55,285 bases of DNA, from positions 86,177 to 141,461 of the forward strand of contig PFBI01000006.1 of NCBI GenBank assembly GCA_002773395.1, in the 5' to 3' direction. The DNA is from Candidatus Kaiserbacteria bacterium CG10_big_fil_rev_8_21_14_0_10_47_16. Lineage in GTDB: Bacteria > Patescibacteriota > Minisyncoccia > Phycocordibacterales > UBA918. The position numbers and the translations under genes are program-made. Of the stretch, positions 47,244 through 49,743 are shown in pieces. Within the stretch, counting starts at the first letter, position 1, and each line of letters starts with the position of its first letter. Under the pieces are notes generated by a model, which did no database searches, was not told the origin of the DNA, and was given only the letters and a program-made list of their open reading frames with translations.

Positions 47244-47384
47244 TTATTCTGGCGGACCCCAACCGGAGCCTTTGAAGGGGTTGTCGTCGGCCGACGACTT
47301 GGGGGACTTCCCTATCACGATCTTGGCTGCAATGGCGACAACCACCACAGCCGCAATGATCGCGCCGATAATGAGCGGGTCCAT
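47244..47384 (-). CDS. 46-aa small membrane protein
   Basis: MDPLIIGAIIAAVVVVVAIAAKIVIGKSPKSSADDNPFKGSGWGPPE; SD ggaaaggag; not in ORF track. Confidence 0.65.
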   Translation of the reverse strand: MDPLIIGAIIAAVVVVAIAAKIVIGKSPKSSADDNPFKGSGWGPPE

Positions 47385-47437: not shown

Positions 47438-47485
47438 CATCCATGTCACGCAGGATGCGGATGCGGTCTTGAGCAGGTGGATGCG
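47438..47485 (-). pseudogene. duplicated 3' tail of htpX
   Basis: Encodes THPPAQDRIRILRDMDV*, near-identical to HtpX C-terminus THPPAQDRIRILRGME*. Confidence 0.75.
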
Positions 47486-47490
47486 TCTTT

Positions 47491-48828
47491 TTAAACTTCC
47501 TTTGTTGCCTCCTTTTTTAAACTAAATAGAGAAAGTAACTTTGAACTCTTCTCTTTTCTTGGCTGAATATCGTATAGTCTGTAATCCGCTGAACTGCCAA
47601 CAAACTCATGTGCAACTATGGACACATCATATTTTTTCGTGAGTTTGTCCAAATGTGTTAATGAGTTTTTGTCTTTATTTGAGAACCCGAGATATATCCT
47701 TCCCTGCGGTTTTAAGTATTCTTCAACATTTTCAAAGAAACGATCTAGTACATTGAACCCATCAGTCGAAACACTGTTCATGAGCCGTGTATGGTTATCT
47801 TTAATTTTTTCTTGGTGGAATGGCGGGTGAAAAAATATTACATTGGCTTTTTCCTGACCTACCGCTGTGAATACCGATCCTTCTCGCACATCAACATTTT
47901 TGAGTTTAAATCGTGCAACATTTTCTTTAGTGTTTGCAACTGCGGCAGGGTTGATATCTACGCTAATGACTTTCTTTGCTCCATTCAAAGCACCTAGAAT
48001 TCCAAGATTCCCCGGACCGCAGCCGATATCAAAAATGACCTTATCTTTACAAAGATCTTTTGTAATATGTTTTGCAAACGTCAGGGAGCTTCTGAAGCGA
48101 TTGGGCGGGTACACGTCGGGGTACACAACCCATTCACGATCTGCATAGAGAATATTAAACTTTTCATCGTACTGCTTCATATTTTCATAAATACCCTCCG
48201 AGCTAAGTGCCGGGTAATAGCTTTTATTGATATATCCAACCTCGTCGTACTCAGCGGTTATCTTATCGAGCATACTCAGTGCTTCTTCTGCGTCTTTTGC
48301 ATAGTAGATATGCTCAGGGAGTTTGTCCCAGTACAATCCTTCTTCTTTCACTCGATTGCATAGATCTTTATACAGCTCCGCCATAGGCGAAACAATAATG
48401 ACCGGTCGATTTTCTTTACCCAAAAATTGATTGATATGTACATCGAGGACTTCATGTAGTGTCCCAAGGCCCCCTGCCAAAGCAATAAAAACATCCGCCA
48501 AATCAGTTAAGCGGCGAATGCGCAGATTGTATGAACTGAAGCCTTCCCAGTTTGAAAACCAAGGATATATCTCTGCTTCATAGTCCTTCAGTCCAACCCC
48601 ATAGACTTCTCCCCCAGCCTCATAGGCGACCCTTCCTGTCACACCCATTAGACCTGCCTTAGAAGCTCCGTTTACAAGCACAAAGTCTCTTTGTGCGATT
48701 CCTTTTGCGATCGATGTTGCATCTCTTAAGTATTTCTCGTTCTCAGTATCATTACCTGAACACATGAGTGTCACATGATATTTAAATCCGAGTTTCTTTT
48801 TTTCTTCTACACTAATCATTGTATGCAC
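47491..48828 (-). CDS. LOG-like (TIGR00730-type) domain fused to SAM-dependent methyltransferase
   Basis: N: NGASKAGLMGVTGRVAYEAGG...ADVFIALAGGLGTLHEVLD; C: VIFDIGCGPGNLGILGALNGAKKVISVDINPAAV...VIFFHPPFHQE. Confidence 0.8.
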   Translation of the reverse strand: MHTMISVEEKKKLGFKYHVTLMCSGNDTENEKYLRDATSIAKGIAQRDFVLVNGASKAGLMGVTGRVAYEAGGEVYGVGLKDYEAEIYPWFSNWEGFSSYNLRIRRLTDLADVFIALAGGLGTLHEVLDVHINQFLGKENRPVIIVSPMAELYKDLCNRVKEEGLYWDKLPEHIYYAKDAEEALSMLDKITAEYDEVGYINKSYYPALSSEGIYENMKQYDEKFNILYADREWVVYPDVYPPNRFRSSLTFAKHITKDLCKDKVIFDIGCGPGNLGILGALNGAKKVISVDINPAAVANTKENVARFKLKNVDVREGSVFTAVGQEKANVIFFHPPFHQEKIKDNHTRLMNSVSTDGFNVLDRFFENVEEYLKPQGRIYLGFSNKDKNSLTHLDKLTKKYDVSIVAHEFVGSSADYRLYDIQPRKEKSSKLLSLFSLKKEATKEV

Positions 48829-48849: not shown

Positions 48850-49743
48850 TTACTCCATCCCTCGCAGGATGCGGATGCGGTCTTGTGCGGGTGGGTGCGT
48901 TTGGAAAAGGCCGGAAATCTTCTGCCCAATTCCCTTTTTATCTTTTCCAAATGGGTCTGCGATGAAGAGGTGCGCGGTTGCGTTGTTGGCACGCTTCATG
49001 GGACGTGCATATGCAGAAATCTTTTCAAGTGCTGAAGCAAGCCCTTCTGGGTATCGCGTTAAGAGTGCACCTGACGCATCCGCAAGGTACTCGCGCTTTC
49101 GTGAAATTGCGAGTTTGATGAGCTGCGCCGCAATCGGTGCGAGTACAATACCGACGATACCAATAATAAGAAAAACGGGGTTACGGTCGCGATTGTCGCC
49201 ACCGCCGAACATGGTCATACGTAAAAAGATATCGGCGACAATCGCGACAAACCCTGCGAGTACGACCGCAACTGTTGAAACAAGCATATCTCGGTTTCCC
49301 ACGTGTGAGAGTTCGTGAGCAATCACTCCTTCAAGCTCACTCCGGTCAAGAATCTGGAGAATACCACTCGTCACCGCAACAACAGCATGTTCTGGGTCTC
49401 GTCCTGTTGCAAAAGCGTTTGGTGCAGGGTCTTCTACGATATATACCTTCGGCATCGGAAGGCCGGCGGTAATCGCGAGATTCTCAACAACATTCCAAAG
49501 CTCACGATGCGTATCACGATCAATCGGCTTTGCACCGGTCATCTTCACCACAATCGTGTCCGAAAACCAGTAGCTTGTGACGTTCATGATAATCGCAAAC
49601 GCAACTGCGATATAGAGAATGAACGGATTTCCGATATACCACGCGATAAAGTACCCAATCGCAATAACGATAATAAGAAAGACCGTCATGAGAAGCCATG
49701 TCTTCCGAATATTTGCACCTTGTTGTGTATAGAGTGTTGCCAT
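48850..49743 (-). CDS. htpX: HtpX-like zinc metalloprotease (M48)
   Basis: GVIAHELSHVGNRDM, REYLADASGALLTRYPEGLASALEKI, THPPAQDRIRIL. Confidence 0.95.
   Translation of the reverse strand: MATLYTQQGANIRKTWLLMTVFLIIVIAIGYFIAWYIGNPFILYIAVAFAIIMNVTSYWFSDTIVVKMTGAKPIDRDTHRELWNVVENLAITAGLPMPKVYIVEDPAPNAFATGRDPEHAVVAVTSGILQILDRSELEGVIAHELSHVGNRDMLVSTVAVVLAGFVAIVADIFLRMTMFGGGDNRDRNPVFLIIGIVGIVLAPIAAQLIKLAISRKREYLADASGALLTRYPEGLASALEKISAYARPMKRANNATAHLFIADPFGKDKKGIGQKISGLFQTHPPAQDRIRILRGME

Follow-up and report, generated by a model that had tools for sequence, protein, structure and literature searches.

The locus examined here raises the question of whether a single gene of a small bacterial genome really encodes two joined enzymes and what these enzymes could do together. 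It lies on a 404,887-base contig of the genome of Candidatus Kaiserbacteria bacterium CG10_big_fil_rev_8_21_14_0_10_47_16 (680,655 bases in 6 contigs, completeness 99.66%), in an analysed stretch of 55,285 nucleotides that is called the window below. On its minus strand, at 47491..48828, an uninterrupted open reading frame of 445 residues runs from a GTG start at 48828 to a TAA stop at 47491, with an in-frame alternative ATG at 48819 (residue 4). The first-pass annotation had read the product as a LOG/TIGR00730-like phosphoribohydrolase joined to a SAM methyltransferase, and the landmarks on which it relied (GLMG, ADVFIALAGGLGTLHE, FDIGCGPGNLGILG and HPPF) are all found in the protein. The profile searches of each half agree with it: the Lysine_decarbox/LOG profile PF03641 matches residues 61-184 (E=1.5e-11, 45.0 bits for a cut-off of 27) and the MTS profile PF05175 matches residues 249-400 (E=3.7e-16, 59.7 bits for a cut-off of 23), so that the LOG domain is N-terminal and the methyltransferase C-terminal. 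A single-sequence AlphaFold model of the whole protein has a pLDDT of 39.7, too low to be of use.

A frameshift or an assembly join could give the same picture, and this explanation is ruled out by a second genome. When 397 genomes of the order were searched, a 424-residue protein that is 38% identical end to end was found in a different family of the same order (G653:C3:3303-4574), with the two domains in the same order and both above cut-off (61.4 bits for PF03641). As the architecture recurs in this independent genome, neither chance nor an assembly join accounts for the fusion, and the two-domain protein is genuine. The two proteins have in common, in a pairwise alignment, even the junction between their halves, which reads YYPAL, then IY, then VYP-NRFRSS; the YYPAL..IY part covers residues 204-214 of the window protein (48187..48219, minus strand). 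In trees built separately for each half, the two fusion proteins come out as sisters both among 26 methyltransferase domains (95/86) and among 40 LOG domains (98/77, the program having noted long branches). As each half groups with the same half of the other fusion protein, the halves appear to have travelled together, and one old fusion, inherited or transferred as a unit, would be the simplest reading.

The fusion is rare. First searches among relatives and in the phylum returned separate halves only; in total, about 1,290 genome searches in the phylum, in which some genomes were counted repeatedly, gave two carriers, and only 1 of the 49 genomes of the window's own family carries the gene. 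The two fusion genes have no neighbours in common. Beyond the phylum, plasmid, phage and viral records were covered, together with a scan of genome contigs by 8-residue words of the window protein, which reaches close relatives only. Viral contigs, phages and plasmids gave no fused match, on which basis the idea that the protein as a whole came from a virus or plasmid was rejected; the word scan returned a remote LOG protein only. A Streptomyces match (H28) that seemed to run past the LOG domain is a stand-alone LOG of 186 residues. The architecture may occur elsewhere, beyond the phylum. A literature search returned nothing relevant on a fusion of LOG and methyltransferase.

The LOG domain occupies residues 16-190 (48259..48783, minus strand), as delimited with PF03641, LDcluster4 (residues 16-147, E=4.2e-11, 43.1 bits for a cut-off of 26.3) and LOG proteins of the PDB, the nearest solved sequences being 5zbj, 5its, 3qua and 2a33. 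More specific families are not reached: TIGR00730 (NCBIfam) matches the window protein (2.3e-18) with a score of 66.5, below its own cut-off of 96.35, and the cytokinin LOG equivalog CtkRMPhLog gives 54.6 bits for the window protein and 37.5 bits for the G653 protein, for a cut-off of 300. In CgLOG, catalysis depends on Arg99 and Glu122, the phosphate is contacted by Gly116-Ala117-Gly118 and Thr119 with Ser19, and Met96, Lys100 and Glu121 lie around the adenine (PMC4979012). Arg99 is aligned with R103 of the window protein (48520..48522, minus strand) and Glu122 with E126, the last residue of the motif AGGLGTLHE (48451..48477, minus strand; canonical form PGGxGTxxE); both residues are invariant in our alignments. 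This Arg/Glu pair is present in both fusion proteins, 23 residues apart as in CgLOG, and the phosphate loop, most of which is retained, maps to G120, L121, G122 and T123. The N-terminal LOG assignment is thus upheld, both by profiles above their cut-offs and by the retained catalytic residues.

The residues facing the base are different. Met96, Lys100 and Glu121 of CgLOG map to Tyr100, Ile104 and His125 in the window protein; the same positions are H, Q and H in the G653 protein, whose loop is PGAVGT and in which the catalytic Arg and Glu are kept. A His just before the catalytic Glu is found in both fusion proteins and in none of the seven plain LOG proteins aligned alongside. Judging from these alignments, the cutting side of the LOG half is kept and its base-reading side is changed. 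The replacement of PGG by AGG, which had been singled out earlier, is indeed present but is unremarkable. Neither fusion protein has PGGxGTxxE letter for letter: the G653 protein has PGAVGTFHE, in which one glycine of the PGG loop is changed, and GT is kept in both. Since AGG (L007) and VGG (L039 and L020) also occur in plain LOG proteins, membership of the superfamily does not depend on the exact motif. Separately, tandem double-LOG proteins of 443-468 residues (L032:838-2199, L034, L040, L041, L046 and L050) were observed in two families of the phylum, and their N- and C-terminal copies form separate clades.

The C-terminal half, residues 233-425 (47554..48132, minus strand), is assigned by PF05175, the family alignment and PDB profiles to the MTS-type class I SAM methyltransferases, in agreement with the initial reading. 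Its SAM-binding motif I, FDIGCGPGN (residues 266-274; 48007..48033, minus strand), is intact. At motif IV (residues 334-337; 47818..47829, minus strand) the protein has HPPF where N is usual, as had been pointed out. The 27 aligned members mostly have N-x-P-F, with A, S or Y as the other residues at position 1; H occupies this position in the window protein only, HPPF being absent from the 26 other methyltransferases, and the G653 fusion has the canonical NPPF. The nearest solved sequences to this half are methyltransferases, and the best PDB profile matches are MJ0882, RsmC, HemK, N6AMT1 and METTL5. The NCBIfam matches are to HemK-type families, with every equivalog score below its cut-off (RF_mod_PrmC, 52.6 vs 199.1; hemK_rel_arch, 72.1 vs 87), and neither half of the fusion reaches its NCBIfam cut-off. 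Its closest relatives, about 240 residues long and roughly 24-38% identical to it, are stand-alone methyltransferases found here and there in the phylum. The window protein also matches the MADS defence component mad2 of PADLOC (83 bits). The match was rejected as generic, and a defence role is not supported, since over the same region other methyltransferases of the phylum (L038 and L049) reach 82 and 74 bits.

The methyltransferase family is found in a second type of fusion, in which GTP cyclohydrolase II is followed by a middle domain and then by the methyltransferase. At least five relatives have this arrangement (L006:1423-3405, L060:148-2124, L062:4191-6185, L067:118-2103 and L069:247-2208), in five genomes of the order (G056, G747, G653, G797 and G801), and G653 thus has both types. 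Their methyltransferases form a separate clade (100/100), and the GTP cyclohydrolase II fusion is a fusion event separate from the LOG fusion. The middle domain, of about 230 residues, is conserved and gave no Pfam or PDB match; read by eye, it resembles a TIM-barrel phosphosugar isomerase. Nothing relevant on GTP cyclohydrolase II joined to a methyltransferase in Patescibacteria was returned by a literature search, and the window's own genome gave no GTP cyclohydrolase II match. As a side observation, standard base salvage looks poor in this 99.7% complete genome, where two weak, sub-cut-off phosphoribosyltransferase matches (PF00156) are the only ones.

As for neighbourhoods, homologues on rhizobial plasmids lie amid genes of small-molecule enzymes, for example amino-acid-kinase-like ones, and one methyltransferase match falls within a class III aminotransferase protein. 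In the phylum, most stand-alone relatives have unrelated, mixed neighbourhoods, of which a few, as named by eye, are nucleotide-related: the relative in L088 adjoins a cytidine-deaminase-like gene and that in L083 belongs to a run with HIT and PfkB-kinase-like genes. Another stand-alone relative (L081:1306-4556) was seen, again by eye, between genes resembling an ABC transporter substrate-binding protein and a permease. The variation of motif IV, the fusion partners and these neighbourhoods favour a putative small-molecule substrate.

The position of the gene points to its acquisition. Its GC content is 40.6%, vs 46.7% for the window, and is lower than that of every other window of its size. 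The htpX protease gene, present in all 48 family genomes searched, lies 21 bp upstream on the same strand (48850..49743, minus strand), and a 47-bp direct repeat of its 3' end brackets the fusion gene, with the right-hand copy at 48854..48900 and the left-hand copy at 47440..47486, 4 bp past the fusion stop. The two copies are identical at 41 of 47 positions (87%), while the best unrelated match in the window reaches 25 of 47. Synonymous changes account for 4 of the 6 differences, a pattern that suggests another functional htpX, and not decay, as the source of the second copy. No integrase was found within the insert, and no htpX-type repeat flanks the fusion gene of G653. Given the lowest GC content and the bracketing repeat, the fusion gene was likely acquired horizontally and inserted at the htpX 3' end. 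Among relatives, htpX is followed almost directly by tRNA-Ser(GGA) in L110 and L118, by other sequence before this tRNA gene in L109, L122 and L126, and by unrelated genes in other family members; as different relatives have different genes here, the stretch from htpX to tRNA-Ser may be a hot spot for insertions. In the window, a small frame of 46 residues (47244-47384, minus strand) lies between the repeat and tRNA-Ser; its product would probably span the membrane once, and it is preceded by a GGAG that resembles a Shine-Dalgarno sequence.

Our main reading, to which we give a probability of about one half, is that the fusion is a genuine bifunctional enzyme, putatively tailoring nucleotides or bases, with a small-molecule substrate and a gene acquired at the htpX 3' end. 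From what is read directly in the sequence, that is the architecture, its recurrence, the catalytic residues and the SAM motif, we infer activity, substrate and the coupling of the halves as follows. With its Arg/Glu pair, the LOG half would cut a nucleoside 5'-monophosphate at the N-glycosidic bond and set a base free. The methyltransferase half would put a methyl group on this base, on the still uncleaved nucleotide or on a closely linked metabolite. Ordinary N6-prenyl-adenine is probably not the base in question, since the side chains at the Met96, Lys100 and Glu121 positions are Tyr, Ile and His here. Modified nucleotide or base metabolism, already suggested by the first-pass annotation, fits with the retained LOG catalytic residues and with the fusion of the same methyltransferase family to GTP cyclohydrolase II, and we keep it in conditional form; the host-facing or signalling role proposed along with it is supported by none of our results. 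Against the main reading count the facts that a fusion partner alone does not prove a shared pathway, that the neighbourhoods of most stand-alone methyltransferase relatives are unrelated and those of the two fusion genes have nothing in common, that by profile the methyltransferase comes close to enzymes acting on RNA and proteins (HemK/N6AMT1, RsmC, METTL5), that HPPF in the window protein and PGAVGT in the G653 protein depart from canonical active-site motifs, and that both halves stay below their NCBIfam cut-offs.

These profile matches lead to an unlikely alternative: that the methyltransferase half acts on a macromolecule, be it rRNA, tRNA or the glutamine of a protein, and that the LOG half, as a tethered enzyme or a module for substrate handling, has a separate role of its own. 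The best solved-structure matches, the HemK-type NCBIfam matches and the canonical NPPF of the G653 fusion all speak for it. However, all equivalog scores are below cut-off, the other fusion partners are metabolic enzymes, and position 1 of motif IV, which is conserved in true amide or amino N-methyltransferases, varies in this family (N, A, S, Y and H). The LOG half could also have lost its chemistry, as the SLOG superfamily takes in non-catalytic nucleotide sensors: it would then bind a ligand and regulate the methyltransferase without nucleotide turnover. The changed adenine-contact positions and the changed PGG-loop glycine of the G653 protein are in keeping with such a sensor, but both fusions, diverged as they are, retain the catalytic Arg/Glu pair and the loop's GT, which makes this decidedly improbable. 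We hold it to be very improbable that the gene is simply an acquired one in decay or already inactive; its low GC content, its insertion beside a repeat and the H replacing N at motif IV could be so explained, but a full-length frame with its catalytic residues is kept in two lineages diverged to 38% identity.

LOG is a cytokinin-activating fold and Rhodococcus fascians produces methylated cytokinins, so that the LOG half might free an active cytokinin whose side chain the methyltransferase would methylate. A fusion of LOG with another cytokinin enzyme, IPT, is known (PMC8234997), and the genome has a gene of the tRNA-isopentenyltransferase family (PF01715). This family is, however, also common in the ordinary bacteria used as controls: 10 of the 14 genomes have it, as do both fusion genomes. 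CtkRMPhLog is far from its cut-off, and for MT1/MT2 of R. fascians the reported substrate is IPP and not the base (PMC10881772). As all three side chains aligned with the adenine contacts of CgLOG are changed, classic cytokinin chemistry appears less likely, and we consider the making of methylated cytokinins highly improbable.

The main reading, that of a nucleotide- or base-tailoring enzyme, can be extended, albeit tentatively: in Patescibacteria, the methyltransferase family might be an exchangeable module placed on different nucleotide enzymes, here LOG and elsewhere GTP cyclohydrolase II, to make undescribed methylated base- or pteridine-like small molecules, and such genes might be carried as single-gene cargo. 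CPR bacteria have very small genomes, and a two-domain enzyme kept there in two diverged lineages likely earns its place. If the product is a methylated base, a new metabolite derived from nucleotides would be added to a group about whose chemical dealings with neighbouring organisms hardly anything is known. The homologous GTP cyclohydrolase II fusions open another way to study this methyltransferase family, and both proteins are of a size that suits direct expression and assay.

Among known systems, the window protein belongs to the fold family of the LOG (LONELY GUY) phosphoribohydrolases, such as CgLOG (Cg2612, PDB 5its) and TIGR00730. It has the GLMG and GGxGTxxE landmarks and the catalytic Arg/Glu at identical spacing, but differs from CgLOG by AGG instead of PGG, by Tyr, Ile and His at the adenine positions and by its C-terminal methyltransferase, and it falls under the TIGR00730 and CtkRMPhLog cut-offs. 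The IPT-LOG fusions of Claviceps purpurea and Rhodococcus strain A21d2 likewise combine LOG with another enzyme domain in a single chain, but their partner is a prenyltransferase (PMC8234997). With the MTS-type, HemK-PRK14968-like methyltransferases (MJ0882, N6AMT1, RsmC), the protein has in common SAM motif I, the motif IV region and the PF05175 fold, whereas HPPF, the N-terminal LOG domain and the sub-cut-off equivalog scores set it apart, in particular from HemK/PrmC/N6AMT1 with their canonical N/D-P-P-Y/F. The GTP cyclohydrolase II fusions resemble it in joining a homologous C-terminal methyltransferase to a nucleotide enzyme, but they have S/A-L/M-P-F at motif IV and RibA, not LOG, as the N-terminal partner.
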